A stretch of DNA of 28,706 bases from positions 1 to 28,706 of the IMG/VR virus record IMGVR_UViG_3300047546_000298. One strand, 5' to 3'. Every line of letters begins with the position of its first letter. Position 1 is the first letter of the stretch. Source of the DNA: a virus. Shown here piece by piece: positions 65 to 27,685 of the stretch. The position numbers and the translations under genes were made by a program. Under the pieces are notes generated by a model that was given only the letters and a program-made list of their open reading frames with translations, was not told where the DNA came from and did not search any database.

Positions 65-68
65 ATTG

Positions 69-620
69 ATGGACAAGACAAAAAAACCACATTATGTAGA
101 TAATCAGAAGTTCTATGCCGAGATCGTGGAGTATCGAAAGAAACTTCAGGAAGCTAGAGAGGCTGGCCTTGAAGACCCACGCATACCTAACTATATTGGT
201 GAGTGTATCTGGAAGATTGCCAACAAACTATCAACCAAGCCTTGTTTCATGAATTACTCCTACCGTGAAGAGATGGTCTCCGATGGTATTGAGAACTGTA
301 TCCTTTACTTCAAGGACTATGACCCTGCAATTGGTCAGAACCCATTTGCCTATTTCACTCAGGTGATATATTATGCGTTTCTTCGTCGTATCAACAAAGA
401 AGAGAAGAACCGCTATGCCATGTATAAACACTTCCAAGAAAACATAATCAACCAGCATGATATCAGTTTGTTAAAAGATAGTGATGATAACCTCTTGCTT
501 CCTATGCAAATGTATGATAATATAAACGACTTTATGAGTAGATTTGAGGAAAAAGAAGAGAAGAAGAAGATCAAGCGTAAGCAAGCAAAAGAAGGTCTGC
601 AACAATTCTATGAGGAATGA
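69..620 (+). CDS. 55: T4 gp55-like late-transcription sigma factor
   Basis: This is a 183-residue protein, close to the 185 residues of T4 gp55. T4 gp55 binds host core RNA polymerase and directs it to the late promoter TATAAATA together with the sliding clamp. The visible match is the sigma-region-2-like core at about residues 62-115 (YSYREEMVSDGIENC, then NPFAYFTQVIYYAFLRRINKE), which parallels the T4 segment containing QEMIADGIEASI and NPHAYITQACFNAFVQRI. A short charged tail (EEKEEKKKIKRK) follows. I chose ATG at 69 over the upstream in-frame TTG at 51 because AGAGG at 57-61 is well placed for it. The gene heads a tight run into gp47/gp46. The clamp gp45 is also encoded in this window (10549), so both phage parts of the late-transcription system are present. 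Confidence 0.9.
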   Translation: MDKTKKPHYVDNQKFYAEIVEYRKKLQEAREAGLEDPRIPNYIGECIWKIANKLSTKPCFMNYSYREEMVSDGIENCILYFKDYDPAIGQNPFAYFTQVIYYAFLRRINKEEKNRYAMYKHFQENIINQHDISLLKDSDDNLLLPMQMYDNINDFMSRFEEKEEKKKIKRKQAKEGLQQFYEE

Positions 621-1884: not shown

Positions 1885-2114
1885 AGCCAACAATCATACA
1901 TATTAATAGAAATATCATTCAACAAAACGCAAAGCACGGTAAAGATGACCCTGTTTGCCGAGTTGAGAAGGATGGTAAAGTTAGATATTGTATGGAAGTT
2001 CAGATTGATGGTCCTTCACATATGATATATCGACCAGAGAAACCAAGACCATGTGGTGCTAAACTCTGGATTGAAACTTATGCTGATGTAAAACTAATAG
2101 GTGAAAAGATTTGA
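1881..2114 (+). CDS. conserved small protein between gp47 and gp46
   Basis: This 77-residue protein starts at TTG 1881, whose TTGA overlaps the gp47 stop. No ATG is available in frame near the start. The protein opens with [14 protein letters not shown], has [15 protein letters not shown], and ends with [16 protein letters not shown]. It reads as a compact beta-rich domain with three cysteines. From memory, short proteins of this pattern occur between gp47 and gp46 in other marine and soil T4-like phages, but I cannot name a function. Its own stop overlaps the gp46 start in the same TTGA manner (2111-2114). It is very likely a real gene, judging from the coupled overlaps on both sides and the absence of a gap. 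Confidence 0.75.
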
Positions 2115-10548: not shown

Positions 10549-11205
10549 ATGAAGTTGAATGATCGTACTCTTACCGTTCTGAAGAACTTTGCCGGTATCA
10601 ATTCCGGTCTTGTTCTTCGACCAGGTAAAGTTCAAAAGACCGTATCACCAGAGAATACCATTCTTGTTGAGGCCCATCTTGAAGATGAGTTTACACATAC
10701 GTTTGGCATCTACGAATTGAATCAGTTCCTCAGTAACGTAACCACTCTCAATACACCTGAGTTATCTTTCACCGACAACAGCGTGATCATGAAAGATAAT
10801 GATCTTGAGTTGAACTATTATTCATGCTCACCTAACTTGATCAATTCTCCACCTGAAGGTAAAGAACTTGTTATGAAGGATCCTGATGTGACCTTCGATA
10901 TCAACTATTCTAATCTTCAAAAGATTATCAAGTTGTCTATCATGAATGAATTGCCTAGCCTGACTGTCATGGGCAAGAATGGTGGTATCTACATTCAGAC
11001 ACATGATGCTAAGAATGATACTTCTAACTTTGCATCATCTAAGGTTGCTGAATATGCTGGCAATGACTTCAGCGTTATGTTCAAGGTTGAAAACCTGAAG
11101 CTTATTCCTGATGACTACAAGGTCGAAATCAAGATCGGTGGTTTCTCATGCTGGACTAACAAGACTGGCACCCTGAAGTATTTCATCGCAATGGAGAAGA
11201 AGTAA
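10549..11205 (+). CDS. 45: sliding clamp (T4 gp45-like)
   Basis: This 218-residue protein (T4 gp45 has 228) opens with MKLNDRTLTVLKNFAGINSG, closely matching T4 MKLSKDTTALLKNFATINSG. Other shared spots are IYELNQFLS, the FDINYSNLQKIIKLS strand-helix in the middle, and a C-terminal LKYFIAMEKK like the T4 NYVVALEAD. The trimeric ring tethers the DNA polymerase and, in T4, also activates late transcription with gp55 and gp33. It has a strong AAGGAG ribosome binding site and its own promoter at 10488, in keeping with the high amounts needed. Downstream genes follow with overlaps, so the promoter probably drives the whole block to RegA. Confidence 0.93.
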   Translation: MKLNDRTLTVLKNFAGINSGLVLRPGKVQKTVSPENTILVEAHLEDEFTHTFGIYELNQFLSNVTTLNTPELSFTDNSVIMKDNDLELNYYSCSPNLINSPPEGKELVMKDPDVTFDINYSNLQKIIKLSIMNELPSLTVMGKNGGIYIQTHDAKNDTSNFASSKVAEYAGNDFSVMFKVENLKLIPDDYKVEIKIGGFSCWTNKTGTLKYFIAMEKK

Positions 11206-11806: not shown

Positions 11807-12014
11807 ACCCTCAGAACGCCAAAAGAGAATGCGAGAGTTGATGAGGCCTATTGACAAACAGATCATGATGTGCGATGATGTGCAAGATTTGTTTGCTCTG
11901 GCATCAATGATGATGGTGACATCCAAGAATATCTTTAAGCAACAGCTTGGAAAAGATGGTGCCATCCGTGTTCTTGAGCATATCATAGAGGATTTAGAAC
12001 GTGACAAAGAATGA
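11796..12014 (+). CDS. small helical hypothetical protein upstream of gp44
   Basis: This 72-residue protein is all-helical by appearance and methionine-rich (LFALASMMMVTSKNIFKQQL). It opens with PSERQKRMRELMRPIDKQI and ends IIEDLERDKE. ATG 11796 is preferred over 11793 because AAGGAT (11785-11790) is five bases away. It overlaps the gene before it and its 3' end overlaps gp44 by 14 bases, with the gp44 ribosome binding site inside it, so the two are coupled. No function is recognised. Confidence 0.7.
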   Translation: MAYEPSERQKRMRELMRPIDKQIMMCDDVQDLFALASMMMVTSKNIFKQQLGKDGAIRVLEHIIEDLERDKE

Positions 12015-12945
12015 TGAATACCTGTGGGTTGAGAAGTATCGACCTGGCAAGGTAAGTGACTGTATCCTTCCTGATCGTATCAAGAAGGCTTTTCAAGAGT
12101 ATGTTGACAAAGGTTCTATTCCAAATCTCATGCTGACTGGTAGTGCTGGTGTTGGTAAGACAACAGTTGCTATTGCCATGTGTCAAGAGATTGGTCTGAA
12201 CTATCTGTTCATCAATTCATCTGAAGAGCGTGGCATCGACATGCTACGAACCAAGATCAGAGGTTATGCCTCTACAATCTCTTTGACTGGTGGACGAAAG
12301 GTCATCATTCTAGATGAGGCTGACTATCTGACACCAGAAGCCCAAGCTGGTCTTCGTGGTGCCATTGAAGAGTTCTCTGATAATTGTTCGTTTATCTTTA
12401 CCTGCAACTTTAAGGCTAGGCTGATTGAGGCCTTGCATTCTCGTTGTTCTGTAATTGACTTTACTCTCAAGGCTGAAGAGAAGCCAAAGATGGCACTTCA
12501 GTTGACCAAGAGACTTGAGGGTATTCTCTCCAAAGAAGGAGTTACCTATGATAAAGAAGTCTTGGTTCAAATTGTCGGTAAGTTTTTCCCAGACTATCGC
12601 CGCACTCTCAACGAGCTTCAGCGGTATTCTAGTAGCGGAAGTATTGATGCTGGCACTCTTGCTCAAGTATCGGATGTAAGAAAGATTGCCGAACTAGTTG
12701 GCTTTCTCAAAGATCAAAACTTTGCAGAGATGCGTAAGTGGGTCGTAGCCAACTCTGACATCGACCCAGCCCGTATCTATCGTAAGATTTATGATAGTCT
12801 GTATGAGTATTTCAAACCACAAAGCATACCGCAGGCTGTGGTGATTATTGCAAAGTATCAGTATCAGTCTGCGTTTGTCGCTGATCAAGAGATCAACTTG
12901 GTCGCTTGTCTAACTGAGATCATGGTGGATTGTGAGTATAACTAA
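12001..12945 (+). CDS. 44: clamp loader ATPase subunit (T4 gp44-like)
   Basis: This 314-residue AAA+ protein (T4 gp44 has 319) shows EKYRPGKVSDCILPD near the start (T4 EQKYRPSTIDECILP), Walker A GSAGVGKTT (47-55), Walker B LDEAD (104-108), sensor 1 FTCNFKARLIEALHSRC with the arginine finger in HSRC, and FPDYRRTLNELQRYSS. It forms the pentameric loader with gp62 that opens and places the clamp. The start must be GTG 12001, as no in-frame ATG is available, with AGAGGAT at 11987-11993. Unusually, the partner gp62 does not follow directly: a ParB-like gene lies between (12960-14114). Confidence 0.93.
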   Translation: MTKNDEYLWVEKYRPGKVSDCILPDRIKKAFQEYVDKGSIPNLMLTGSAGVGKTTVAIAMCQEIGLNYLFINSSEERGIDMLRTKIRGYASTISLTGGRKVIILDEADYLTPEAQAGLRGAIEEFSDNCSFIFTCNFKARLIEALHSRCSVIDFTLKAEEKPKMALQLTKRLEGILSKEGVTYDKEVLVQIVGKFFPDYRRTLNELQRYSSSGSIDAGTLAQVSDVRKIAELVGFLKDQNFAEMRKWVVANSDIDPARIYRKIYDSLYEYFKPQSIPQAVVIIAKYQYQSAFVADQEINLVACLTEIMVDCEYN

Positions 12946-12959
12946 GAAAGGTATGTGAA

Positions 12960-14114
12960 ATGTTGATGAAAACTCCAAAAGACTTTAATGTTGATGAAGT
13001 AACTGTTCGTAATGTTTTTGGTAGCACCATAGATGTGCTTGCCTATCATGAAACCTTTGATAAAATCGTCTGTGAAGAAAAGCAGACTGATGCTACTTTT
13101 GTTAAATTCGGTTGGTTTGACATCTCAGATTACGCTTTTGATGATGAAAGATTAGAGAATATTGGCATCAGAGCGGATCAAAATACTACTGAAGATGCTG
13201 ATGATATGTTTCATAGTCTTTCCCATAAAGGTTGGGACGCTGGACATTTTCCAATAATTGTCAGCACAAATGGTAGAATTAAAGATGGGCGAACAAGAAT
13301 CCGAGCTTCAATACTTGCAGGTGAACAATATGTTCCTTGTGCTATCTTTGATTATGAAGATGATGATTCAGTATTGAGTCAGATTAGTAATGGTCTTGTA
13401 GCGAATATCGGTGATCCTCAGAGAATTGCAAAAGGTAATGATTTTGTTGTGGCTGGTGTTCAAATCATTTTAGCCGGACAGATGAAGTGTGAATTTAGTG
13501 AAGTTGAACATTGGCTATATCATACTGTAAAGATTGAGAGGGTTATGAATAATGTTGGTGGTAACATTACAAAGATTGTTCAGAGAATCCTTGATAAAGC
13601 TAAAAGAAATAAGAATGGTCAGCTTTTAGAAGTTCGTGATAGAGATGCTTGGCGAAAGTTTTTGGAAGCATCTTTGGATGAAAATGCTGCCTATTATCGC
13701 AACACATTTGGTATTCAAAAAGTTGATGAAATCCTTCTTTACGTTTCTAATGGCAACAAAGATGCTATGACTTTTTGTGAACACATTTTACCAAATGCTG
13801 CAAAAGGCATCGTGACGAATGTTGTTTTGTATTCTCCTATAGATGACCCTGTCCAATCCGTTAAAAATCATAAAGACTTTATTGAGTCGATTGAAAAATA
13901 TCATGGATATATGTATGATTGGGTCAATAGAGAACTTTCAGGTATAAAATTGACAGCACCAGAAAGTTCCCTTTGGAGAGTCATTGGTGTGATGCCTCAA
14001 TTTGTCGAATTGAGTAAACATAGAAAACTGTTGAAAAACCATATGCTTGCTTCAATAAATGATCTTCCGGTCTATAAAGAAGATAATAACATAAACGGTT
14101 TATTTGATGACTGA
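12960..14114 (+). CDS. ParB-N-like (ParB/sulfiredoxin fold) protein inserted in the clamp loader operon
   Basis: This 384-residue protein has a ParB-type nuclease/CTPase-like domain at about residues 66-140: a preceding helix, FPIIVSTNGRIKDGRTRIRA (98-116) and VPCAIFDYEDDD. DGRTRIRA stands where ParB proteins have G.HR.A, so the usual His is replaced. After it comes NGLVANIGDPQRIAKGNDFV and a helical C-terminal part of about 220 residues that I do not recognise. Lysine codons are mainly AAA and phenylalanine mainly TTT, while the flanking clamp loader genes favour AAG and TTC, a sign of recent acquisition. It has its own ribosome binding site (AAAGG 12947-12951) and its end overlaps gp62 by 8 bases. 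Phage ParB-like proteins may cut DNA or switch host genes; which applies here is unknown. Confidence 0.65.
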   Translation: MLMKTPKDFNVDEVTVRNVFGSTIDVLAYHETFDKIVCEEKQTDATFVKFGWFDISDYAFDDERLENIGIRADQNTTEDADDMFHSLSHKGWDAGHFPIIVSTNGRIKDGRTRIRASILAGEQYVPCAIFDYEDDDSVLSQISNGLVANIGDPQRIAKGNDFVVAGVQIILAGQMKCEFSEVEHWLYHTVKIERVMNNVGGNITKIVQRILDKAKRNKNGQLLEVRDRDAWRKFLEASLDENAAYYRNTFGIQKVDEILLYVSNGNKDAMTFCEHILPNAAKGIVTNVVLYSPIDDPVQSVKNHKDFIESIEKYHGYMYDWVNRELSGIKLTAPESSLWRVIGVMPQFVELSKHRKLLKNHMLASINDLPVYKEDNNINGLFDD

Positions 14115-14526
14115 CCTATTCAAAGAGATCATTCCATCTATCCTCCAGACCAAGAAGAACGTGGTGGAGAACGAGAAAGACTATGTACCATTCGTGGTAA
14201 ACAAGGCTCTCTCGTTCCACTACGATTGTGTGCTTTTTGTGAATGAGATGAACAGGGTCCCCAATACCGACAGGATTCTTCAATACCACTATTATCTAAA
14301 TACCATCCGAGGCTATAAACGCCCGTTTCAGAAATGGCAGAAACTTGAGACTACCGAAGACCTGGAAGCGGTCAAGGAGTATTATAACTACTCCAACGAG
14401 AAGGCCAAGGAAGCCCTGTTGATTCTGTCGGATGGTCAGATCAATGAGATAAAAAGAAAATTGGATAAAGGTGGTTTGAATGGTAAATCTAAGCGAACTC
14501 ATAGAGGTGACGCTACCAGAACCTGA
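14107..14526 (+). CDS. 62: clamp loader small subunit (T4 gp62-like)
   Basis: This 139-residue protein (T4 gp62 has 187) resembles gp62 in the stretch FVVNKALSFHYDCVLFVNEM, then HYYLNTIRGYKRPFQKWQKL, which parallels T4 [21 protein letters not shown] and FNYLMAAVPRGKRYGKWAKL. It would complete the gp44/gp62 loader. The start is ATG 14107, with an in-frame TTG at 14104 as an alternative; the ribosome binding site is weak, so translation probably depends on coupling to the ParB-like gene it overlaps. The last 16 residues are encoded in the 47-base overlap with RegA. The protein is shorter than T4 gp62 at its N-terminus, but comparably short gp62 proteins are known in other T4-like phages as far as I recall. 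Confidence 0.82.
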   Translation: MTDLFKEIIPSILQTKKNVVENEKDYVPFVVNKALSFHYDCVLFVNEMNRVPNTDRILQYHYYLNTIRGYKRPFQKWQKLETTEDLEAVKEYYNYSNEKAKEALLILSDGQINEIKRKLDKGGLNGKSKRTHRGDATRT

Positions 14527-14884
14527 CGATTTCCTCAAGATCAGAGAGACACTCTCTCGTATCGGGGTTGCGTCAAAGAAGGATCGCACCCTGTATCAAT
14601 CATGTCATATCTTACACAAGCAGGGTAAGTATTACATAGTTCATTTTAAGCAGTTATTTTTATTAGATGGTAAGAAGTCAGACTTCTCAGACGAAGATAG
14701 GGCTCGCCTTCACACCATCGTAAATCTATTGGCCGAGTGGAACCTCCTTGGGCTGGTCGATCCTGATAAGAGCAAAGACCCTGTAGCACCTCTCAGCCAG
14801 ATCAAGATACTCTCTCACAAAGAGAAGAACGACTGGATTCTTGTGACTAAATATAATATAGGCAAGAAACGTAGGGAAGACTAA
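14480..14884 (+). CDS. regA: RegA-like translational repressor
   Basis: This 134-residue protein (T4 RegA has 122) has LPEPDDFLKIRETLSRIGVA (T4 KKPEDFLKVKETLTRMGIA), then DRTLYQSCHILHKQGKYYIV (T4 DKVLYQSCHILQKKGLYYIV) and a C-terminal WILVTKYNIG (T4 WKLVPKYTIG). RegA binds the initiation region of many phage early mRNAs and blocks ribosomes, including those of clamp and clamp loader genes. The start ATG 14480 lies inside gp62, with AAAGGTGG at 14466-14473. It adds about 12 residues at the N-terminus compared with T4. The tail after the conserved IG is KKRRED, which is basic and may aid RNA binding. Confidence 0.92.
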   Translation: MVNLSELIEVTLPEPDDFLKIRETLSRIGVASKKDRTLYQSCHILHKQGKYYIVHFKQLFLLDGKKSDFSDEDRARLHTIVNLLAEWNLLGLVDPDKSKDPVAPLSQIKILSHKEKNDWILVTKYNIGKKRRED

Positions 14885-17182: not shown

Positions 17183-17679
17183 CGGCTGAACTTTATCCAT
17201 CACAATTACCTCAGGTAACATTCAGAGACTACTTCAGCGATGAAGTTTGGATTCAATCTAATACAGGTAACTCAGTAACCAATGCCGATGTGCGTAATGT
17301 TACCGTAACATCAAACACACCTTTTGGTAATGTGACAGTCAACGTGGCCAATCATGTTATCAGATTCTCAGGTTCATATACAACAGGTTTTAGTGATAAT
17401 GTTGTATATACTAAAATACAGTCAAACACACTGAACTCATATTACTGGCTTGATACGCCTGTAACCACAGACATGTATTCATTGGATGCCAACACGGTAA
17501 ACACAAATAACTTACTCATCTATCAATTCAACACAGACAATAATTTTTGGGCCAACGTAACATATACTCTACAAGTTCAATATACCGGTGGTGGTGCTAA
17601 TGATACACTATCAATCAGCAGAAATGTGGAAAGAAATGTTTATGCTACGGCTGCATATGTAAGGTCTATCTATCCATGA
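17179..17679 (+). CDS. probable structural protein upstream of the PAAR protein
   Basis: This 166-residue, Asn/Thr/Val-rich beta protein is not a family I recognise. It has VTSNTPFGNVTVNVANHVIR, many aromatic turns and a final AAYVRSIYP. There is no signal peptide or membrane segment. It starts at TTG 17179 with AGGAG at 17167-17171, and the TTGA overlap with the previous stop supports this. The end overlaps the PAAR gene by ATGA. Composition and position between a spike-like protein and a PAAR tip suggest a baseplate or tail-tip component. Confidence 0.55.
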   Translation: MTAELYPSQLPQVTFRDYFSDEVWIQSNTGNSVTNADVRNVTVTSNTPFGNVTVNVANHVIRFSGSYTTGFSDNVVYTKIQSNTLNSYYWLDTPVTTDMYSLDANTVNTNNLLIYQFNTDNNFWANVTYTLQVQYTGGGANDTLSISRNVERNVYATAAYVRSIYP

Positions 17680-18005
17680 GTAGACCAGTTTGTAGAATTG
17701 GTGATGCTGACATACCTCATTGTTCACCAATGGTTAGAGCAACAGGCTCACCAAATGTTTTTGTAAACGGTAGACCAGCAAGTTGTCAGTTTGATCTTAA
17801 CACACCACATAGAGGAGCAATAGGTGTACATTGCTTTGGTGCCATGTCTCCCATGCACGTTGCTTATATTGCCATAGGCAGCGTTACAGTTTTTACAAAC
17901 TCTAGAGGTCAGGGAAGAATAGCTGATCTTCTAATATCAGCTGGTGTTCCTCCAATATGTACCGCCGTTGCTCAAGGATCAGCATCAGTTTTTGCTGGTG
18001 GTTGA
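17676..18005 (+). CDS. 5.4: PAAR-repeat spike tip protein (T4 gp5.4-like)
   Basis: This 109-residue protein (T4 gp5.4 has 97) has the PAAR pattern: PVCRIGDADIPH, MVRATGSPNVFVNGRPASC, HCFGAMSP, IAIGSVTVFTNSRG, then PPICTAVAQGSASVFAGG. PAAR proteins fold into a sharp cone that binds one metal ion with His and Cys and cap the tail spike for membrane piercing. Conserved H15, H45, H53 and C54 plus C95 could supply ligands. The final codons are followed at once by the tRNA promoter, whose TTGACA overlaps the stop region (18002-18007). It is the last gene of the small structural block. Confidence 0.85.
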   Translation: MSRPVCRIGDADIPHCSPMVRATGSPNVFVNGRPASCQFDLNTPHRGAIGVHCFGAMSPMHVAYIAIGSVTVFTNSRGQGRIADLLISAGVPPICTAVAQGSASVFAGG

Positions 18006-18032
18006 CAAAAAGACACAAAGGTGATATAAATA
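18002..18032 (+). promoter_or_regulatory. overlapping sigma70 promoter and exact T4-type late promoter (TATAAATA)
   Basis: TTGACA (18002-18007), a 17-base spacer and TATAAA (18025-18030) give a sigma70 promoter. The same -10 continues as TATAAATA (18025-18032), the exact T4 late promoter sequence recognised by gp55. Counting from either element, transcription would begin at about 18037-18038, the first base of the tRNA. It is the only exact copy of TATAAATA I noticed on either strand. Confidence 0.7.
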
Positions 18033-18036
18033 GCAT

Positions 18037-18112
18037 CGTGGAGTAGAGAAGTGGACATCTCGTCAGCCTCATAAGCTGGAGATCGCAGGTTCGAATCCTG
18101 CCTCCGCAACCA
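18037..18112 (+). tRNA. tRNA-Met (CAT), initiator-type
   Basis: This is a complete 76-base cloverleaf. The acceptor is CGTGGAG (18037-18043) against CTCCGCA (18102-18108), then A73 and encoded CCA (18110-18112). The D stem is GAGA/TCTC, the anticodon stem TCAGC/GCTGG with loop CTCATAA (CAT at 34-36), and the T stem GCAGG/CCTGC with loop TTCGAAT. Position 1 is C and position 72 is A, so the first acceptor pair is unpaired, the hallmark of bacterial initiator tRNA. A11-T24 is the initiator-type purine-pyrimidine D-stem pair. The anticodon stem lacks the three consecutive G-C pairs of host initiators (A29-T41, C31-G39). A strong promoter precedes it and a terminator follows it. Confidence 0.92.
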
Positions 18113-18136
18113 ACTCTTGCCTAATGGAAGAGTTTT
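18112..18136 (+). terminator. terminator after the tRNA
   Basis: AACTCTT (18112-18118) pairs with AAGAGTT (18128-18134) around a 9-base loop, followed by TT. It begins at the CCA end, leaving almost no 3' trailer, and would separate the tRNA from the Hsp20 gene; some read-through could still feed Hsp20. Confidence 0.7.
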
Positions 18137-18171
18137 ACATAACCCTAACTTGCTTACAAAGGAGTTAAACC

Positions 18172-18657
18172 ATGAACGCACTCAATAAAGTTCCCTATTT
18201 CGATCCATTTTCTTTCCCTGATCTGACAAAGAATGCCATCGGCTTCGACCAGATTTTCAAGAAGATTGGTGAGATTACAGAAAACCTTCCTAAGATTCCA
18301 ACGTATCCTCCTTACAACATCCGTAAGGTCGATGATAACAAGTATGTGATCGAAATCGCTGTTGCTGGTTTTGGTCAACAAGACCTCGAACTTGAATTGC
18401 AAGAAGGTACTCTGACAGTAAAGGGTAACACAGTAGCATCTTCATATCCTGGTTCAGAATATCTGTTCAAGGGTATTGCAGACCGCGCTTTCACCCGTCA
18501 GTTCACTCTGGCCGATACGGTTGTTGTAAAGAACGCCGATCTCGTAAATGGTATGTTGAAGATCATGCTTGAGCGTTTTATCCCAGAAGATAAGAAGCCA
18601 CAGAAGATCAACATCAATGCTGGTGAAAAGTCAGAAAAGCAATTTCTAAAGGACTAA
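18172..18657 (+). CDS. hsp20: Hsp20/alpha-crystallin small heat shock protein
   Basis: This 161-residue protein has an alpha-crystallin domain at about residues 40-150: YPPYNIRKVDDNKYVIEIAV, GFGQQDLELELQEGTLTVKG, then FKGIADRAFTRQFTLADTV and NGMLKIMLERFIPE with the GxL-type motif. It resembles bacterial IbpA and the Hsp20 common in T4-like phages of aquatic bacteria. It would hold unfolded proteins in oligomers, perhaps capsid or tail parts during assembly. AAGGAG precedes ATG 18172. The N-terminal region FDPFSFPDL is short and hydrophobic. The DUF1127 gene follows with its ribosome binding site inside this gene's end. Confidence 0.92.
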   Translation: MNALNKVPYFDPFSFPDLTKNAIGFDQIFKKIGEITENLPKIPTYPPYNIRKVDDNKYVIEIAVAGFGQQDLELELQEGTLTVKGNTVASSYPGSEYLFKGIADRAFTRQFTLADTVVVKNADLVNGMLKIMLERFIPEDKKPQKININAGEKSEKQFLKD

Positions 18658-18889: not shown

Positions 18890-19037
18890 GTGGAGATTAT
18901 GGGCAAAAGCACTTGGTGAAAAACACGGCAAAACGGATAAAGAAGCAGACAAGATCGCGCTCATCCGAACAGCCATTGTGCTTTGCTATATAATAACGAA
19001 TATCTTTATCGTGGCAGGTGTGATAAGGCATTGGTGA
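18888..19037 (+). CDS. small single-span membrane protein
   Basis: This 49-residue protein begins MWRLWAKALGEKHGKTDKE and has one membrane span at about residues 24-45 (IALIRTAIVLCYIITNIFIV) ending AGVIRHW. I recognise this pattern of short MW.LWA.ALGEK...DKEAD proteins from other phages of alphaproteobacteria and related hosts, with unknown function. No other in-frame start exists before the span, so ATG 18888 is required even though it overlaps a -10 element. TTGGAG (18871-18876) is a ribosome binding site 11 bases upstream. The stop overlaps the next ATG as TGATG, showing the frame is used. Its mRNA must then come from upstream through the hairpin at 18841. Confidence 0.75.
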   Translation: MWRLWAKALGEKHGKTDKEADKIALIRTAIVLCYIITNIFIVAGVIRHW

Positions 19038-19801
19038 TGAAATATAACTTTGTAATTGAACCCCCGCAGCCTAAGAAGGCTATCGTAATTACCCCTACAG
19101 TTGGATCTGAAAAGCTTAAAGATACCATTGCTGGTGTCGATGCTCAGACATATCCAAATGTTGAACATCTTATTGTATGTGATGGTATGGAAAACTGGGA
19201 GCGTCTAAAGCAACTTCAGTTTGATGCGCCAAAAAATCATCCAGTTAACATCACAAACATTCCATTCAATACTGGTCATGGCGCACAAGGTTTCTATGGG
19301 CACCGCATCTATGCGGCCTTCGCTCATCTTGTTGATCATGACTATATCTTTTTCTGTGACGATGATAATTGGTTTCGACCAGATCATGTTGAAACTCTCG
19401 TCAAGACATTAGAAGAGGGTAATGATTTTGCTTTCTCTCTTCGTCAAATCTATGACAAAGACAAGAACTATCTGTGTGATGATAACTGTGAAAGCCTAGG
19501 TAAATGGCCAATCTATTTCACACATGGTAAAGAAGAACACTTTCTTATCGACACATCTTCATTTGCTTTCCGTCGTGAGTTCTTAATTAAAGTATCACAA
19601 TTCTGGCATCATGGTTGGGGTGGTGATCGTCACTTCTTCTATAATGTCAAAGACTTTGCCAAGTATAATACAAATGGTAAACACACTCTTTGCTATCGTC
19701 TTGATGGTAACCCTAACTCAGTCACAGCCACATTCTTTGAACAGGGTAATGAGGCAATGAAGACTATTTACGGCGACAAATTCCCCTGGATAAAGGACTA
19801 A
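19037..19801 (+). CDS. GT2-family glycosyltransferase
   Basis: This 254-residue GT-A enzyme opens with KKAIVITPTVGSEKLKDTIA and GVDAQTYPNVEHLIVCDG (nucleotide binding). HDYIFFCDDDNWFRPDHVETL holds the DDD metal motif at 108-110, and HHGWGGDRHFFYNV is the acceptor-side motif with a catalytic acidic residue. It would transfer a sugar from a nucleotide donor; the sugar cannot be read from the sequence. The start ATG 19037 is used rather than an earlier in-frame codon because the TGATG overlap with the membrane protein sets it. It heads a run of overlapping sugar genes. Confidence 0.85.
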   Translation: MKYNFVIEPPQPKKAIVITPTVGSEKLKDTIAGVDAQTYPNVEHLIVCDGMENWERLKQLQFDAPKNHPVNITNIPFNTGHGAQGFYGHRIYAAFAHLVDHDYIFFCDDDNWFRPDHVETLVKTLEEGNDFAFSLRQIYDKDKNYLCDDNCESLGKWPIYFTHGKEEHFLIDTSSFAFRREFLIKVSQFWHHGWGGDRHFFYNVKDFAKYNTNGKHTLCYRLDGNPNSVTATFFEQGNEAMKTIYGDKFPWIKD

Positions 19802-19804
19802 ATT

Positions 19805-20527
19805 ATGGATCTCGGACAACTTATCTATTCAATCAAAGAGGCTTCAAACGAACAACTTCGTAATGAAGAATTGTTTCAGTTTATAGGTTTCTGCCTTCAA
19901 CATGCACATCACTCTGAAGCACAGAACTATCAAGATGTTTGGGCTCTCTGGGAAAACAAATTTCATGAGCGTGATAAGTTTTTCGTAGAGTTTGGTGCTA
20001 CAGACGGCAAGACCAGTAGCAACACATATCTTCTTGAAAAAGTCTATGGTTGGGATGGTATTCTGGCTGAACCTAATCCTATCTGGCATGAAGAACTTTT
20101 TAAGAATAGAACATCACACATTTCTCATAAGTGTGTATTCACAGAATCAAATAAGACACTAGACTTCCTCAAGACAGAGGCTCCTGATCTGGCCACAATC
20201 AAAGGTTTTGGTCGTGACGATGAGTTCAAGACTGAGCGTGAGAAGTCTGAGACAATTTCAGTAGAAACTATTTCACTTTACGATTTGTTGGAGGAGAAAA
20301 ATGCCCCACATATTATTGACTATCTTTCGGTCGATACAGAAGGTAGCGAATACGGGATACTTAATGCGTTCTTCCAGAAGAACAATAAGTATGATGTAAG
20401 ACTGATTACAGTCGAACACAATTTTACGATGCGTGACAAGTTACATGAACTCTTGACAGCCAATGGTTATAAGCGTAAGTTTGAACCAATCTCTCGTTGG
20501 GATGATTTCTATACGAAAGTGAATTGA
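19805..20527 (+). CDS. FkbM-type methyltransferase
   Basis: This 240-residue class I SAM enzyme has FVEFGATDGKTSSNTYLLEK (FVEFGATDG at 60-68) as the SAM loop, GWDGILAEPNP with the EPN acid (89-91), and DYLSVDTEGSEYGIL (D177, E179) as the FkbM-type motif. FkbM proteins methylate hydroxyl groups of sugars and polyketides. Its place directly after a glycosyltransferase suggests O-methylation of the glycan built here. The start ATG 19805 has AAGGA just upstream. Confidence 0.88.
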   Translation: MDLGQLIYSIKEASNEQLRNEELFQFIGFCLQHAHHSEAQNYQDVWALWENKFHERDKFFVEFGATDGKTSSNTYLLEKVYGWDGILAEPNPIWHEELFKNRTSHISHKCVFTESNKTLDFLKTEAPDLATIKGFGRDDEFKTEREKSETISVETISLYDLLEEKNAPHIIDYLSVDTEGSEYGILNAFFQKNNKYDVRLITVEHNFTMRDKLHELLTANGYKRKFEPISRWDDFYTKVN

Positions 20528-20528
20528 T

Positions 20529-21416
20529 ATGAAAAAAGATTTGATTATTGGTGGTGCCAGCAATTACACTTGGGACCAGTTGAAGTATTGGGTGAACTCA
20601 ATCAAGAAGAGTGGCTTTGATGGTGATATTGTCATCGTTGGCACTAATCTCAAGAAGGCCACCATAGAAAAGCTAAACTCTGAAGGTGTTATTCTTAGTC
20701 TCTACGGTCGCACCAATGCAGATGGTGATGTTGTAGCGCCAAACAATAATGCTCCTCATGTCGAACGTTTCTTCTATCTATGGAATTATCTGAATGGTAT
20801 TGAACCAGGTCAATATGAAAATGTGATCACTACTGATACTCGCGATGTGGTCTTTCAAACTAATCCTTCTAAGTGGTTAGAAGATAATATGATGGGACCA
20901 CTTCTTGTGGCCTCATCAGAAGGTATGCGATACAAGAACGAACCTTGGGGTAATCAGAATCTACTTGAAGCTTTTGGTCCTTTCTTCCACAATATTCTCA
21001 AAGAAAAGACAATCTATAATGTTGGTACACTTGCTGGTGAATTTGAAACTCTGAAAGGTCTTCTCTCATTCATCTTTCATCTCAGTGTCAATCGACCTAT
21101 CCCTATTGTAGATCAGGCTGTCTTCAACTTCATACTTAATCAACCACCATTCTGCTTTGACACCTTACTCACGAATAATAGTGATGCTTGGGCCATTCAG
21201 CTTGGTACAACAATTGGTGCTGTTGAGTCAGGTAAAGGTGATCTTGGTATGATGTTCATGAGTGATCCTTCAAAGTATCAAGAAATCTATGAAGACAATC
21301 AACCTGTCATTGAAGACGGTGTTGTAAAGAATACTGAAGGTACTCCATATTGCATTGTTCACCAGTATGACCGTGTGAATGGTCTCAGAGAACAGATTGA
21401 AAGGATTTACGGATGA
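20529..21416 (+). CDS. glycosyltransferase-like protein with DTRD motif
   Basis: This 295-residue protein has MKKDLIIGGASNYTWDQLKY and GFDGDIVIVGTN as the start of a GT-A-like fold, YENVITTDTRDVVFQTNP with D103-T-R-D106 in place of DxD, and a C-terminal YCIVHQYDRVNGL where a His often aids metal binding. QAVFNFILN suits the acceptor loop. This outline fits GT8-like nucleotide-sugar transferases (nucleotide-diphospho-sugar fold); the exact family is uncertain. The ATGA at 21413 couples it to the next gene. Confidence 0.65.
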   Translation: MKKDLIIGGASNYTWDQLKYWVNSIKKSGFDGDIVIVGTNLKKATIEKLNSEGVILSLYGRTNADGDVVAPNNNAPHVERFFYLWNYLNGIEPGQYENVITTDTRDVVFQTNPSKWLEDNMMGPLLVASSEGMRYKNEPWGNQNLLEAFGPFFHNILKEKTIYNVGTLAGEFETLKGLLSFIFHLSVNRPIPIVDQAVFNFILNQPPFCFDTLLTNNSDAWAIQLGTTIGAVESGKGDLGMMFMSDPSKYQEIYEDNQPVIEDGVVKNTEGTPYCIVHQYDRVNGLREQIERIYG

Positions 21417-21919
21417 ACCCCGAATATTTTGATATTGAAAACCTGAAGATGTTTGGTATGTGGCCACACCAGAGTTTTATCTCTAGAGCCATTGCACCAT
21501 ATGCCAAGCGTATCAGAAAAGACAAGGTTTCTATTCTGCTTGTTGGTGATAACAAAGGTGAGCAAGCGGTCGACTTTGCCGATCTTTGTGGTGATAAAAT
21601 TCAGAAACTTTCTGTCTTTAGAAATAGTGATGATGATCTTGTCAAGGCTATCTTTACCAAGAACACCAAAGGTCGAGATGAAATCACAGATACTCATGAT
21701 AAGGAATCTTTTGATATCATTTGTATAGATGAACATTCCTGCACCGAAGAAACCTTGAAGAAGTATTATGATCTTGTTCCTAGTAATGGTATCTTCTGTG
21801 GTAATGGTCACGAAACAAATAAAGTAAAAGAAGCCTTGACATCCTTTCGCAGAAGTAGTAAGATTGGCACTCCTATTCAAGTTGCGAACCGTTCGGTATG
21901 GTTCTGGTATAAGAGGTAA
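21413..21919 (+). CDS. SAM methyltransferase-like protein
   Basis: This 168-residue protein has a Rossmann-type layout: SILLVGDNKGEQAVDFADL as a degenerate SAM loop, SVFRNSDDDL, then FDIICIDEHSCTEETLKKY with the acidic end of the fourth strand, and VPSNGIFCGNGHE. It reads like a small class I methyltransferase (Methyltransf_24 type) acting on the same glycan. The SAM-binding loop GDNKGEQA is not canonical (GxGxG), so binding is not certain. It overlaps both neighbours closely. Confidence 0.55.
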   Translation: MNPEYFDIENLKMFGMWPHQSFISRAIAPYAKRIRKDKVSILLVGDNKGEQAVDFADLCGDKIQKLSVFRNSDDDLVKAIFTKNTKGRDEITDTHDKESFDIICIDEHSCTEETLKKYYDLVPSNGIFCGNGHETNKVKEALTSFRRSSKIGTPIQVANRSVWFWYKR

Positions 21920-21921
21920 TC

Positions 21922-22980
21922 ATGAAGACTGCACTCGTTCTTGGTGCCGGTGGTTTTATCGGCAATCATATGGTCAAAAGATTGAAAGAAGAAGGTTATT
22001 GGGTTCGTGGCGTCGATCTCAAATATCCTGAATATGGTCGCACAGAAGCCGACCACTTTGTTCTTCGTGATCTTCGTCATGCTGATGATGTGTATGATTT
22101 GATTGGTTGGGCCGGAGTAAACCGTGATCCTCATCAAATCTTTGCGTTGAAGTTTGATAAACCATTTGATGAAATCTATCAGTTTGCGGCTGACATGGGT
22201 GGTGCTGGTTACATCTTCACAGGTAACAACGATGCTGATATCATGCACAACTCTGCTACAATCAATCTGAACGTGCTTGATGCTGTTCGTGAAAAGAATA
22301 AACGTTTTCAACAAAACACAACCAAGATTTTTTATTCTTCATCAGCTTGCATGTATCCTGAACACAACCAGTTGGACCCAAACAATCCAAACTGTGCTGA
22401 AGATAGTGCATACCCTGCAAATCCTGATAGTGAATATGGATGGGAGAAACTATTCAGTGAAAGACTTTATCTTGCCTTCAATCGCAATCACGATATTCCT
22501 GTACGCATTGCTCGTTTCCATAACATCTACGGTCCGCTCGGCACCTGGGATGGAGGTAGAGAGAAAGCGCCCGCAGCAATTTGTCGTAAGGTAATTCAGT
22601 CTAGAGGTGAAATCGAAGTTTGGGGTGATGGTGAACAAACACGTTCATTCCTGTACATTGATGATTGTATTGATGCTGTTCGTAAGTTGATGGAATCTGA
22701 CTTCATGGGACCTGTAAACATTGGTTCAGAAGAAATGGTTACAATCAATGAACTGGTTGATACAGCAGCCGAGATTGGTAAGAAGAAGATTGCAATCAAA
22801 CATATTCCTGGTCCTACAGGTGTGCGTGGCCGCAATTCAGATAACAGATTGATCTGGGAGAAGTTGCACTGGAAACCTCAATATAATCTTCGTGCTGGCC
22901 TTGAATTTACATATGATTGGATTGAAGAACAGGTCCAAAAGAAAGTGAACAAGCAGATGAAAGATGCTATTACACTATGA
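21922..22980 (+). CDS. gme: GDP-mannose 3,5-epimerase (GME-like)
   Basis: This 352-residue SDR enzyme reads closely like plant GDP-mannose 3,5-epimerase (EC 5.1.3.18). NAD binding is shown by GAGGFIGNH (8-16). The stretch AADMGGAGYIFTGN is GME-specific. The catalytic set is in place: C143 in SSSACMYPE, Y172 and K176 in EYGWEKL, and K215 in GGREKAPAA, plus ARFHNIYGPLGTWDGG and GPTGVRGRNSDN with the R302/R304 region. The numbering is offset by two from Arabidopsis GME. The reaction converts GDP-D-mannose to GDP-L-galactose and GDP-L-gulose. It has a ribosome binding site at AGAGG just upstream. The next gene, a GT10 fucosyltransferase-like protein, is joined by ATGA, making GDP-L-galactose a likely donor. 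Confidence 0.88.
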   Translation: MKTALVLGAGGFIGNHMVKRLKEEGYWVRGVDLKYPEYGRTEADHFVLRDLRHADDVYDLIGWAGVNRDPHQIFALKFDKPFDEIYQFAADMGGAGYIFTGNNDADIMHNSATINLNVLDAVREKNKRFQQNTTKIFYSSSACMYPEHNQLDPNNPNCAEDSAYPANPDSEYGWEKLFSERLYLAFNRNHDIPVRIARFHNIYGPLGTWDGGREKAPAAICRKVIQSRGEIEVWGDGEQTRSFLYIDDCIDAVRKLMESDFMGPVNIGSEEMVTINELVDTAAEIGKKKIAIKHIPGPTGVRGRNSDNRLIWEKLHWKPQYNLRAGLEFTYDWIEEQVQKKVNKQMKDAITL

Positions 22981-23867
22981 AACCTTTACTCAGATTAGGC
23001 TTTACGGACACATTCAGTGGACCTATTAACTTCTTTACCAACATTCTCTCAGAAAGATTCGATGTGGTTCGTGATGATATTGATCCACATTATCTCATCT
23101 TTGGTGACCTCAATTTTGGCAATGATAATGGCCGATATGATGACAGGCCATGTGTTAAGATTTTCTACACGGGTGAAAACGCTCGCCCTTGGGATTATCG
23201 TTGCCACTATTCCATTTCATTTGACCACCATGAGTTTGATGGTCGCAACTATCGTTTACCTCTTTATGTGTTGTATGATTATGATAATCATTTTAGGGAT
23301 GCGCCGAATACTAGCAACGTTAATAGGCAACCAGAAGACTTGCTTGAACAAAAAGATTTCTGTTCGTTTGTAGTGAAGAATGGTGGTTGCGAAAAGCGTA
23401 ATCAGTGGTTTCATAAATTGAATGAGTATAAGCCAGTCGCATCTGGTGGGCCTCTATTCAATAACATTGGTTACATTCTTCCTCGTGGTGAAGAGTCCGT
23501 TCAAGCTAAAACAAAGTTCCTCAACTCATATCGTTTCAATCTTTGCTTCGAGAACTCTAGCTATCCTGGTTATGCCACAGAGAAGCTATATGAGGCTCTG
23601 ACCTCAAAAACTATTCCTATCTATTGGGGTAGCCCAACCATCGAAGTTGATTTCAATACAAAAGCCTTTCTTAACTGGCATGACTATGGTGATGACGATG
23701 ACTTTTTTGAAGCTATTAAAGAGATTGACGAAAATCCAGATTTATATGAGGAAATGTATCTACAACCTATGTTTGCGGACTATCAGAAGGTAAACAAGTT
23801 CTTTGATAAAGATCGTTTTCTGAATTGGTTTCAACGAACAGTTTATATGGGTATCCCACTATCATGA
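22977..23867 (+). CDS. GT10 alpha-1,3-fucosyltransferase-like enzyme
   Basis: This 296-residue GT-B enzyme shows the GT10 pattern: KIFYTGEN (61-68), and the donor-site block RFNLCFENSSYPGYATEKL (186-204) followed by IPIYWGSP (213-220). It uses GDP-linked L-sugars, normally GDP-fucose. No GDP-fucose pathway genes (GMD/FCL) are visible, but the gene directly upstream makes GDP-L-galactose, the 6-hydroxy analogue, which some fucosyltransferases accept. The ATGA overlap supports joint expression. N- and C-terminal signal or membrane segments are absent, so it is cytoplasmic. Confidence 0.88.
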   Translation: MKPLLRLGFTDTFSGPINFFTNILSERFDVVRDDIDPHYLIFGDLNFGNDNGRYDDRPCVKIFYTGENARPWDYRCHYSISFDHHEFDGRNYRLPLYVLYDYDNHFRDAPNTSNVNRQPEDLLEQKDFCSFVVKNGGCEKRNQWFHKLNEYKPVASGGPLFNNIGYILPRGEESVQAKTKFLNSYRFNLCFENSSYPGYATEKLYEALTSKTIPIYWGSPTIEVDFNTKAFLNWHDYGDDDDFFEAIKEIDENPDLYEEMYLQPMFADYQKVNKFFDKDRFLNWFQRTVYMGIPLS

Positions 23868-24610
23868 ACAAATCACTTATCATAACACCAACTGGTATTC
23901 CTATGACTTTCGATCCGCGTTATGATGCGGAGAACCATTGGCGATATACCAATAAGGCTGAACGTAACTACGAGTTGTTATGTGTGGTCTACAATGACTT
24001 TGAGCCTGAGCCTAATTCATATGACCATATCATTCGTATGAAAGGTCATAAATGGCAAATCATGAAAGAGATTCCTAAAGTCTTTGATCTCTCACCTTAC
24101 AAGTATATCGGTTGTGTCGATGATGATCAGATCACAGACATTCATAACTTCAATATAGGTCTCAACTTGGCCGACAATCTGGACTTCAAGATGTGGCAGT
24201 TGTCCATGATTGAGGGATCTGGTATCATATATGATTGTCTGAAACAAAACAAAGATTGGGTCTTCTCAGAAACTAACTTCATTGAAATGGGAAGCACATT
24301 CTTCCGTAAAGATAAATTTTTTGAGGCTCTAGATTTCTTCAATGAATTGAACTTTACTGTTGGTTGGGGTATTGACAAAGTATGGTGTGATGTGCTACAG
24401 TGTACGGCAAATGTGGTTCATGCGGCATCTATCTATCACCCACCAAATCATATCAAACCTTCCTACTACGATCAACAGGAAGCAATGAGAGAGATGAACC
24501 ATATGATCTACGAGGTCTATCCTCGTATCATGCGTGATAAATACAAGCGTGAGAATTGGCAGTTTGTGGATTCTCAAGTGACACTTAAAGCATTTCAACT
24601 TGCGAGGTAA
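23864..24610 (+). CDS. DUF707-like glycosyltransferase
   Basis: This 248-residue protein has MNKSLIITPTGIPMTF, HKWQIMKEIPKVFDLSPYKY, then YIGCVDDDQITDIHNFN (DDD at 86-88) and FTVGWGIDKVWCDVL. The KW..... DDD, GWGID..W order resembles DUF707 (putative glycosyltransferases known from plants and bacteria). ATG 23864 is chosen because its ATGA overlaps the stop of the GT10 gene; an in-frame ATG at 23825 would run 43 bases into it. Its role in glycan building is inferred from context. Confidence 0.7.
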   Translation: MNKSLIITPTGIPMTFDPRYDAENHWRYTNKAERNYELLCVVYNDFEPEPNSYDHIIRMKGHKWQIMKEIPKVFDLSPYKYIGCVDDDQITDIHNFNIGLNLADNLDFKMWQLSMIEGSGIIYDCLKQNKDWVFSETNFIEMGSTFFRKDKFFEALDFFNELNFTVGWGIDKVWCDVLQCTANVVHAASIYHPPNHIKPSYYDQQEAMREMNHMIYEVYPRIMRDKYKRENWQFVDSQVTLKAFQLAR

Positions 24611-24612
24611 TT

Positions 24613-25641
24613 ATGAAGAAGAAGGTCCTAGTTACAGGCGGTGCTGGTTTCATCGCCCATCATGTTATTGATACTATTCTTGAGAGAACTGATTGGGAAG
24701 TGGTGACAATCGACCGCCTTGATTTCTCAGGCAATCTAAACCGTCTCCATGAATTGTTAGAAACGAAAGATGCGGCCACCCGTAAGCGTGTTCGTTTTGT
24801 TTTCCACGATCTCAAGGCTGAGATCAGCCCTTTGACATTCAACAACATTGGTGATTGCCATTATGTCCTGCATCTTGCAGCTGGCTCCCACGTTGACCGT
24901 GCTATTGAGAATCCTCTTGAGTTCGTTCTTGATAATGTGGTCGGCACCTGTAACATTCTAAACTATGCCCGCAAGTGCAAGAACCTTGAACGTTTTGTTT
25001 ACTTCTCTACAGATGAAGTTTTTGGCCCTGCACCAAAGGGTGTTCTGTATGATGAACGCGCTCGTTACAATTCAACGAATCCTTATTCAGCCACTAAGGC
25101 TGGTGGTGAAGAACTTGCTGTTTCTTTCCATAACACATATTCAATGCCAATCTATATCTGTCATACGATGAACGTTTTTGGTCAGCGTCAGCATCCAGAG
25201 AAGTATGTGCCAAAGAGCATCAAGAACATTCGTGATGGTGGCCTGATTACGGTTCATGCCGATCCTGTTTCTGGTCAACCTGGTTCGCGTTTCTATGTTC
25301 ACGTTTCTGATGTGGCTGACGCTCTCATGCACATTCTTAAACTTGACGAACATCGTTTTGAACCTGATTATGGTGGTGCAAAGTGCCCTAAGTTCAACAT
25401 TGTTGGTAATGAAGAAATTGATAATCTTGAACTCATTCAGATCATCGGCAAGGTCATGAACAAGCATGTGAACTATGAGTTGATCGACTTCAATAAATCA
25501 CGTCCAGGTCACGATCTTCGCTACAGCCTCAGCGGTGAATATATGAAGAGCCTTGGTTGGGAACCTCGTATCAAACTGCGTGACCGAATCGAAGAAGTCG
25601 TTCACTGGACTCTTGAGAATAATCATTGGCTCTTGGCTTGA
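24613..25641 (+). CDS. rmlB-like: dTDP-glucose 4,6-dehydratase-like (RmlB type) SDR
   Basis: This 342-residue extended SDR has NAD-binding GGAGFIAHH (9-17), HLAAGSHVDRAIENP, the RmlB-type STDEVFG (132-138; T133, D134, E135) and Y158/K162 in YSATK. CHTMNVFGQRQHPEK and SRFYVHVSDVADAL follow. This is the standard set for dTDP-glucose 4,6-dehydratase, which makes dTDP-4-keto-6-deoxyglucose. The third glycine of GxxGxxG is replaced by Ala (GGAGFIA). No RmlA, C or D is seen here, so it probably feeds another branch, fitting the C-methyltransferase next door. GAGG precedes ATG 24613. Confidence 0.88.
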   Translation: MKKKVLVTGGAGFIAHHVIDTILERTDWEVVTIDRLDFSGNLNRLHELLETKDAATRKRVRFVFHDLKAEISPLTFNNIGDCHYVLHLAAGSHVDRAIENPLEFVLDNVVGTCNILNYARKCKNLERFVYFSTDEVFGPAPKGVLYDERARYNSTNPYSATKAGGEELAVSFHNTYSMPIYICHTMNVFGQRQHPEKYVPKSIKNIRDGGLITVHADPVSGQPGSRFYVHVSDVADALMHILKLDEHRFEPDYGGAKCPKFNIVGNEEIDNLELIQIIGKVMNKHVNYELIDFNKSRPGHDLRYSLSGEYMKSLGWEPRIKLRDRIEEVVHWTLENNHWLLA

Positions 25642-25649
25642 GGTGAAAC

Positions 25650-26888
25650 ATGATGTCAGATTGCAAGAAACTTACAGAATGTGTGGCTTGCGGATCAAAC
25701 AAGCTCAAGCTAGTTCTTGATCTAAAGAAGCAACCTCTCGCTAATTCTTATAAACTAAAGAAAGATGATTGGCAGCCAGAGTTTCCTTTGGCTATCAATC
25801 GCTGTGAAGAGTGTAATCATGTACAACTTACTCATGCTGTTAATCCTTCTCTCATGTTTGAGGACTATCTCTATGTGAGTGGTACGACTCAGACTGGTCG
25901 TGAACACTTTAAGCAGTTTGCTCAGTTCACTAAAGATTTGCACGGTTCAGCCAAGACTGTTCTTGATGTTGGTTGTAACGATGGTACTCAGCTTGACTAC
26001 TTCAAAGAACTTGGTCTGAGAACTTATGGTGTTGATCCAGCCAAAAACTTGTGGTCTAAATCTTCTGAAAATCATTTTGTTTGGTGTGACTACTTCAACG
26101 ATAAGTGGGTCTCAGGTTCTTCAGGCTTAGTTAAAGGTACCACGTTTGATATCATCACCGCACAGAATGTCTTCGCACATACAGCTAATCCTTTAGAGTT
26201 TCTTCATACAGCAAAGAATGTGATGAGTGATGATAGTTTACTTTTTGTTCAAACTTCTCAAGCTAATATGATTCTGAACAATGAGTTTGATACCATCTAT
26301 CATGAACATATCTCATTCTTTAACTCACAGTCCATGAAGAAGTTGTGTGAACGTGCAGGTCTTTATTTAGTTAATGTCGATAAGATGCCTATTCATGGTA
26401 CAAGTTATATCTTTACAATTAGTCGTAAAGAGCGTAAAGGCAACGTTGACTTTGTGATTGCTCAAGAAGAAAAGAGTGGACTCTACAATCCAGAAACATA
26501 TGTTAAGTATGCAAACCGCTGTAAGCAGATTGTAGATGAGTTGGTCATGACTGTCTGCCAATATACAAGAAGCGATGTTGGTTGGCTTGCAGTCGGATAT
26601 GGTGCACCTGCAAAGGGTATGACATTGCTAAATTACTCAGGCCTGAAGTTAGATTTTATCATTGATGATAATCCATTAAAGCAAGGTCGGTTCACACCAG
26701 GTTCTAGTATTCCGATTGTACCTGCGTCAGAGCTTGAGAAGTATAAAGATGCTTTAGTCTTTGTGCCTCTTGCATGGAATTTCTATGATGAGATTGTCAG
26801 AAAGATTAAGAAACTCCGTGAAGACAATCCAAACAATGTCTATGATAGATACGTTACTTACTTTCCATCAGTGGTAACTTCATCATGA
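25650..26888 (+). CDS. TylC3/NovU-type sugar C-methyltransferase
   Basis: This 412-residue protein follows the three-part layout of deoxysugar C-methyltransferases: an N-terminal zinc-binding domain (C11, C14, C52 and C55 in CVAC and CEEC), a SAM domain with VLDVGCNDGT (104-113) and ITAQNVFAHTANP, the family hallmark DTIYHEHISFF, and a C-terminal domain with WLAVGYGAPAKGMTLLNYSG and FIIDDNP. These enzymes put a methyl on C3 of 4-keto-6-deoxy sugars, the kind of product made by the dehydratase encoded just upstream. Two ATGs (25650 and 25653) are close; GAGG at 25640-25643 suits either. The stop overlaps the next ATG. Confidence 0.9.
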   Translation: MMSDCKKLTECVACGSNKLKLVLDLKKQPLANSYKLKKDDWQPEFPLAINRCEECNHVQLTHAVNPSLMFEDYLYVSGTTQTGREHFKQFAQFTKDLHGSAKTVLDVGCNDGTQLDYFKELGLRTYGVDPAKNLWSKSSENHFVWCDYFNDKWVSGSSGLVKGTTFDIITAQNVFAHTANPLEFLHTAKNVMSDDSLLFVQTSQANMILNNEFDTIYHEHISFFNSQSMKKLCERAGLYLVNVDKMPIHGTSYIFTISRKERKGNVDFVIAQEEKSGLYNPETYVKYANRCKQIVDELVMTVCQYTRSDVGWLAVGYGAPAKGMTLLNYSGLKLDFIIDDNPLKQGRFTPGSSIPIVPASELEKYKDALVFVPLAWNFYDEIVRKIKKLREDNPNNVYDRYVTYFPSVVTSS

Positions 26889-27685
26889 AAAAGCACATCT
26901 ACTACCATCTCTATCTTCCAGATGAACATGCAGCATGGTCAAATTATCTTCTAGAACAATATAAACCAATCGAAGATAATTTTCTGATTGATGCTGTTGA
27001 TAAGTTTCATCTTGTATTGGTTGGAAAACCAAAGAACATAGAGATGGCATCAGCCCTCGCAAGTGCGCTTATTCCAAAACTGGAAATTCACACTTTCGAG
27101 GACAAGTTCAAGAGTGACAAGGACCTTCACACTCTTGATACCGACTTGCATGGTCGCAATGAAAGACCTATGACCGAATATGGTACACTATGTCTCATTG
27201 CTGATCATGCTCGTCGGGAAGATGCTCACTTCTTGTATATGCACGCCAAAGGAGTCACCTCTTATGAGAGGTGTCTTCGTTCAGGTAGATATGCTGAGTT
27301 TAGAAACTATCTATACTGGCGTAAGTTTCTTGAGTGGGCTGTTGTTGAACACTGGCAGGAATGTAATCGTATGCTTGAGACATATGATGTTGTCAGTTGT
27401 AATTACTCAGAATGGCCAATGAAGCATTTCAGCGGTAACTACTGGTGGTCAAAGTCCGAGTATATCAAGAACATCGCTCATATCAATGATGATGCTTGGT
27501 GGGCTTCGGAGTGCCAAAAACATCCTGATGTAAACCCGCTTACATGGCGTTTGCGTGATGAAATGTGGATTTGTCATGGTGAGAATGCAAAGATAGTCTC
27601 ATTGAAGAATGCCGACAGACCACCGCCACATGGTACTCTGGCGGTTGACTTAATGTGTAGAAGAATGTATGCTGGATATAATTGA
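26885..27685 (+). CDS. glycosyltransferase-like protein of the phage glycan cassette
   Basis: This 266-residue protein has IYYHLYLPDEHAAWSNYLLE, a helical middle, FLYMHAKGVTSYERC and KHFSGNYWWSKSEYIKNI, with HGRNERPMTEYGTLCLI between. I have seen the pattern 'Y.H.KGV...FSGN.WWA...Y' in bacterial capsule-type and phage proteins that sit in glycan clusters. No DxD is obvious, so catalytic type is unclear. It joins the previous gene by ATGA and its end overlaps the DUF1289 gene by 17 bases. Confidence 0.6.
   Translation: MKKHIYYHLYLPDEHAAWSNYLLEQYKPIEDNFLIDAVDKFHLVLVGKPKNIEMASALASALIPKLEIHTFEDKFKSDKDLHTLDTDLHGRNERPMTEYGTLCLIADHARREDAHFLYMHAKGVTSYERCLRSGRYAEFRNYLYWRKFLEWAVVEHWQECNRMLETYDVVSCNYSEWPMKHFSGNYWWSKSEYIKNIAHINDDAWWASECQKHPDVNPLTWRLRDEMWICHGENAKIVSLKNADRPPPHGTLAVDLMCRRMYAGYN

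Follow-up and report, generated by a model that had tools for sequence, protein, structure and literature searches.

How a bacteriophage could start translation with an initiator tRNA that breaks the three-G-C rule of its class is the question raised by a small gene in a stretch of 28,706 bases (the window), a linear virus record that forms part of a T4-type phage genome. By published description, three G-C pairs in the anticodon stem are highly conserved across every domain of life and serve as the pass that admits initiator tRNA to the ribosomal P site. The tRNA encoded here has AGC:GCU at these positions.

ARAGORN found this tRNA as the only one in the window, an intact tRNA-Met(CAU) (Table 1; tRNA position n corresponds to 18036+n) that scores 60.1 bits against Rfam RF00005 (cut-off 29). 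Its acceptor stem opens with an unpaired C1xA72 (18037/18108), followed by G2:C71, U3.G70, G4:C69, G5:C68, A6:U67, and G7:C66; the D stem comprises G10:C25, A11:U24 (18047/18060), G12:C23, and A13:U22, and the anticodon stem U27.G43, C28:G42, A29:U41, G30:C40, and C31:G39, closed by the loop CUCAUAA. The T stem is GCAGG/CCUGC, the discriminator is A73, and CCA is encoded, a trait shared by 98% of proteobacterial initiators (PMC5143459). A preliminary description of the locus had correctly reported the unpaired C1-A72, the A11-T24 pair, and the absence of the three G-C pairs, the last with one refinement: two of the canonical pairs are gone and the middle one, G30:C40, remains.

Table 1. Features of the window around and beyond the tRNA gene.
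Feature	Position	Strand	Remark
Late sigma factor, T4-type	51-620		
SbcC-like nuclease subunit	2111-3826		
Sliding clamp	10549-11205		
Clamp loader	12001-12945		
RegA-like translation repressor	14480-14884		
PAAR-motif protein gene, upstream of tRNA	17676-18005	+	phrog_281, E 1.4e-14
Sigma-70-like promoter	18002-18030	+	TTGACA (18002-18007), 17-base spacer, TATAAA (18025-18030)
Initiator-type tRNA-Met gene	18037-18112	+	anticodon CAU 18070-18072; encoded CCA 18110-18112
Variant anticodon stem, 5' side (A29 G30 C31)	18065-18067	+	GGG or AGG in host initiators
Variant anticodon stem, 3' side (G39 C40 U41)	18075-18077	+	
Hairpin ACUCUU...AAGAGU	18113-18133	+	first part of Hsp20 leader, directly 3' of tRNA
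Hsp20 small heat shock protein gene	18172-18657	+	phrog_432, E 6e-38

The assignment to the initiator class is based on two marks, a weak or unpaired 1:72 and A11:U24. C1xA72 and A11:U24 occurred together in none of the 990 non-CAU tRNAs of the fetched loci and in 160 of the 233 CAU tRNAs, a figure inflated because many loci were fetched by initiator patterns. The combination is diagnostic of initiator tRNA, and both marks support the earlier call of initiator type. Among the features of bacterial-type tRNAfMet, the gene possesses the weak 1:72, A11:U24, CAU within a CUCAUAA loop, and A73, and lacks the three G-C pairs at 29-31:39-41; we treat this motif as usual rather than defining, because the annotated initiator of phage T5 and the chromosomal initiators of alphaproteobacteria lack it too. 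The paired 1:72, pyrimidine 11, and purine 24 of elongator tRNA-Met and of tRNA-Ile2 (lysidine) are absent. Minimum free energy folding returned no cloverleaf, as is usual for an unmodified tRNA, and covariation was therefore used for the structure: when 15 related tRNAs are aligned, 98.7% of the cells in stems are paired and 13 of 20 pairs have changed on both sides, with none of 500 shuffles giving covariation as high. Formylation is favored by a 1x72 mismatch, G2:C71, C3:G70, and A11:U24 (PMC7949028), all of which are present except the minor determinant C3:G70, replaced by U3.G70. The suggestion that the tRNA is formylatable is thus backed by most of its sequence determinants and weakened at one.

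The remark that phages usually carry elongator tRNAs understates how common such genes are: BLAST returned 181 phage records similar to the window tRNA and 412 that resemble the initiator of E. coli, and the T5 gene bears the annotation 'initiator tRNA fMet'. Phage initiator-type tRNA genes are common and already known. In 21 genes of named phages, A11:U24 accompanies a 1:72 that is weak or mispaired; of these, 17 lack GGG:CCC, 19 keep G30:C40, and 11 have G39, in a tally that favors the stem of the window tRNA, with which several members were found as query (the ARAGORN register of phi-ST2 and GodonK was corrected by one base). Acinetobacter phage MD-2021a was dropped because its tRNA adjoins secG and is probably host DNA. 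A scan of viral contigs with the stem left free in the pattern recovered at least 121 genes, including that of the window; these scans covered genes that encode CCA and have both A73 and a GAG/CUC D stem, and the fractions that follow are rough figures from a non-random sample. Among the matches listed, interior viral initiators (at least 700 bases from the end of the locus) have GGG:CCC in 7 of 71 cases and G39 in 32 of 71. G30:C40, on which the search pattern put no constraint, occurs in 139 of 142 unique viral initiators among the matches listed (98%), compared with 650 of 922 other viral tRNAs (Fisher P 6e-16). At 31:39 the same 142 genes, again among the matches listed, have G:C, U.G, or C:G and never A:U or U:A; U31.G39 makes up 39% of them versus 4% of other viral tRNAs, a share raised by the inclusion of a second scan aimed at G39, and the first scan alone gave U31.G39 in 24 and C31:G39 in 6 of 91 unique viral genes among the matches listed. 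Loss of the three-G-C motif therefore appears, from these sequences, to be typical of the phage initiators examined rather than peculiar to this phage.

The chromosomal comparison draws on the initiators of bacterial genomes at large. In Pseudomonadota, 97 of 150 genomes gave a match (about one genome in three has an initiator that the pattern does not pick up), and among the matches listed all are GGG:CCC or AGG:CCU except an extra Agrobacterium copy. With query genomes excluded, G39 initiators number 0 of 298 in Pseudomonadota and 0 of 199 in Bacillota; with them included, the counts are 1 of 299 and 1 of 200, each being a query genome chosen for carrying one. A search across 84,980 species found the exact AGC:GCU form in 7 contigs; four genomes with such a copy also carry a normal initiator, and each of the three copies inspected has phage genes for terminase, portal, or capsid nearby. 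The AGG:CCU initiators of alphaproteobacterial chromosomes share A29:U41 and G30:C40 with the window tRNA but have G31:C39 instead of C31:G39. On these sequences, A29:U41 alone is ordinary in alphaproteobacteria, and C31:G39 is essentially a phage feature.

Several named systems help to place the gene. The tRNAfM (CAU) of bacteriophage T5 (AY543070, 32428-32505), likewise phage-encoded, has A11:U24 and also lacks the three G-C pairs (A29:U41, G30:C40, and U31.G39; AGU:GCU), but it differs in having U1xU72 and U73 and in belonging to the large tRNA cluster of a T5-type phage. The same six stem bases as in the window, AGC:GCU, recur in Agrobacterium phage Atu_ph07, Rhizobium phage RHph_TM3_3_3, Brochothrix phage A9, and the rhizobial prophages L203 and L205. 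The acceptor stems of the two prophage initiators are identical to that of the window tRNA. The carriers represent different phage types and hosts, TM3_3_3 having G1xA72 and A9 no encoded CCA. Unconventional initiators of Mycoplasma and Rhizobium were reportedly treated by Samhita, Shetty and Varshney in 2012. These and the E. coli 3GC mutant (PMC7949028) resemble the window tRNA in lacking the three G-C pairs, and they work when the host initiator is limiting; the laboratory mutant, however, also alters 30:40 (PMC10486304), which the window tRNA keeps. Among open-licence papers, we found no description of this stem pattern in phage initiators. In Sinorhizobium phage phiN3 (L230), a gene annotated as elongation factor Ts-like (1024-1203) lies near a tRNA-Met.

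The tRNA gene sits inside the phage genome among phage genes, which also include a dUTPase gene, and occupies the same site in viral relatives. The stop codon of the PAAR-motif gene overlaps the -35 element of the promoter, and the usual -10 spacing predicts a start site at about 18037, where the tRNA itself begins, so that the tRNA would have almost no 5' leader; tRNA and Hsp20 would share one transcription unit. Of 75 relatives with sufficient sequence, 39 have this TTGACA-N17-TATAAA promoter ahead of Hsp20, including nearly all of the closest, against a background of 54 in 1600 windows drawn at random from these loci. A T4 late promoter was rejected: the window has a single exact copy of TATAAATA, at 18025-18032, where 1.23 copies are expected by chance, and relatives have a TTGACA-N17-TATA promoter in its place. 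Low-threshold Rfam searches of the tRNA's surroundings and of four relatives returned the tRNA and chance matches only, and no wcaG-type leader RNA was found.

A tRNA precedes Hsp20 at this site in 13 of 75 relatives and is always initiator-type, with the stem either AGC:GCU (L122, L123, L124, L135, and L137) or UGG:CCA (L127-L131, L133, L134, and L143). In other relatives, among them L125, L126, L132, and L136, the promoter and the Hsp20 leader are present without the tRNA, which was therefore inserted into, or lost from, the leader; a hairpin like that at the start of the leader is kept in relatives both with and without the tRNA. Two copies look damaged in the acceptor stem, that of L137 by A71 and that of L135 by an extra base in the 3' strand, so the gene is not indispensable. 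Longer contigs of the group can hold other tRNAs, and the initiator is thus not the sole tRNA of such phages. In three UGG:CCA initiators (L127, 3864-3938; L133, 3004-3078; L143, 3850-3924), 1:72 is A1xA72 or C1xA72 and the T loop has G55 (UGCAAUU), where U55 is near-universal. Within about 150 bases ahead of the Hsp20 gene of L139 (start near 3252), the same site holds a tRNA-like sequence, TGCGGGG...CCCCGCTCCA, which ARAGORN does not call and which is perhaps a decayed initiator.

What the variant stem means for ribosomal use turns on the middle pair. In 16S rRNA, A1339 docks on pair 30:40 and G1338 on pair 29:41; swapping G30:C40, the pair that A1339 grips, reduces translation in vivo 20-fold (PMC11497404). 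This pair is kept here and in almost all viral initiators, so P-site use looks selected rather than lost, and we read the tRNA as a working initiator instead of the hybrid altered at the ribosome that was proposed earlier. On balance, the gene probably encodes a functional, formylatable phage initiator of the unconventional-stem type that tops up initiation during infection. Host-type RNA polymerase would transcribe it from the strong sigma-70-like promoter, at the head of the Hsp20 unit and almost or entirely without a 5' leader; host MetRS would charge it (CAU, A73), host transformylase would formylate it (C1xA72, G2:C71, G4:C69, A11:U24), and it would enter the P site through G30:C40, with A29:U41 and C31:G39 tolerated there. 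Its contribution might be felt under heavy phage-driven translation or a shortfall of the host initiator, a scarcity that such translation or host tRNases could create. The two marks, the covarying cloverleaf, the synteny in relatives, retention of G30:C40, the encoded CCA, the formylation determinants, and the conserved promoter all support such a working initiator; against it stand U3.G70, the two damaged relatives, the many relatives without the gene, and the poor initiation of the full E. coli 3GC mutant, in which all three pairs are changed, unless the host initiator is scarce (PMC7949028).

The gene might instead be kept mainly as a spare whose G39 and altered stem escape tRNases such as VapC, allowing initiation after host tRNAfMet is cut, an idea we regard as possible but tentative. 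VapC cuts host tRNAfMet between A38 and C39 (PMC4105405), and since the corresponding bond here is A38|G39, which may make the phage tRNA a poor substrate for such nucleases, evasion is a reasonable second reason for the gene. The frequency of G39 in interior viral initiators, set against its absence from the Pseudomonadota and Bacillota counts, and the excess of U31.G39 over other viral tRNAs agree with this, and resistance to anticodon nucleases has already been proposed for phage tRNAs (PMC10264068). About half of viral initiators nevertheless retain C39, including the UGG:CCA form at the Hsp20 site, and phages generally avoid encoding tRNA-fMet where it is the target of VapC-LT2 (PMC10264068).

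The other accounts are less probable still. That a phage-acquired copy is drifting almost neutrally in its anticodon stem while host initiators do the work would suit the patchy presence and the damaged relatives, but is unlikely given the constraint evident in the near-invariance of G30:C40 among the matches listed, the compensatory changes, and the restricted set at 31:39. It is quite improbable that the tRNA is poorly formylated and feeds methionine into elongation at internal AUG codons: C31:G39 is elongator-like and U3.G70 points the same way, yet the combination of C1xA72 with A11:U24 is absent from the 990 non-CAU tRNAs of the fetched loci, G30:C40 is retained, and A29:U41 is ordinary in alphaproteobacterial initiators. 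Most improbable is that the stem loosens selection in favor of phage TTG, GTG, or CUG starts. An altered 30:40 pair (M1) does loosen discrimination against CUG (PMC11497404), but that pair is unaltered here, and by crude Shine-Dalgarno scoring 26 of 31 window genes start with ATG and three non-ATG starts look real (TTG at 2111 and 17179, GTG at 12001), where published bacterial usage is 82/14/4% ATG/GTG/TTG. The start-codon profile does not suggest the redirected initiation envisaged in the preliminary description.

Beyond this locus, it is conceivable, though we hold it only tentatively, that initiators of unrelated phages have departed from the three-G-C rule again and again, with G30:C40 alone retained and G39 often adopted at 31:39, a pair that host chromosomes hardly use, and so form a phage-specific class selected to start translation once the host initiator is cut or limiting. 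Phages offer many natural variants that break the motif at 29:41 and 31:39 and almost never at 30:40, a pattern that suggests the middle pair is the core requirement; such variants may show which part of the mark matters and are ready-made for tests, the G39 form being a direct test case for evasion of initiator-cutting nucleases.

Some further features of the region deserve mention. The Hsp20 leader is conserved (18113-18171 in the window; L125, L132, L136, L149, and L150), with a hairpin around GCCUAAUGG and then UAACUUGCU...AGGAGUUAA; its UAACU could pair with AGUUA around the Shine-Dalgarno sequence, perhaps as an RNA thermometer, and it has no Rfam match. A second conserved hairpin, absent from the window, directly follows the promoter upstream of the tRNA or Hsp20 leader in L127, L135, L136, L139, L149, and L150, with a variable stem and a loop containing AGUAAUGCGU or GUAUUGCGU. 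The closest named phages by protein, about 48-58% identical, are phages of Synechococcus, Methylophilales, and Stenotrophomonas and indicate no host, and nucleotide searches gave only short matches, to cyanophages. Adjoining the clamp loader gene, 12960-14114 encodes a protein of 384 aa for which 50,697 phage records offered a single distant match, annotated ParB-like and 27% identical. Judged from translations only, the genes in 18983-27685 include successive sugar epimerase, glycosyltransferase-like, and methyltransferase-like members, a set that would suit glycan or capsule-type modification.
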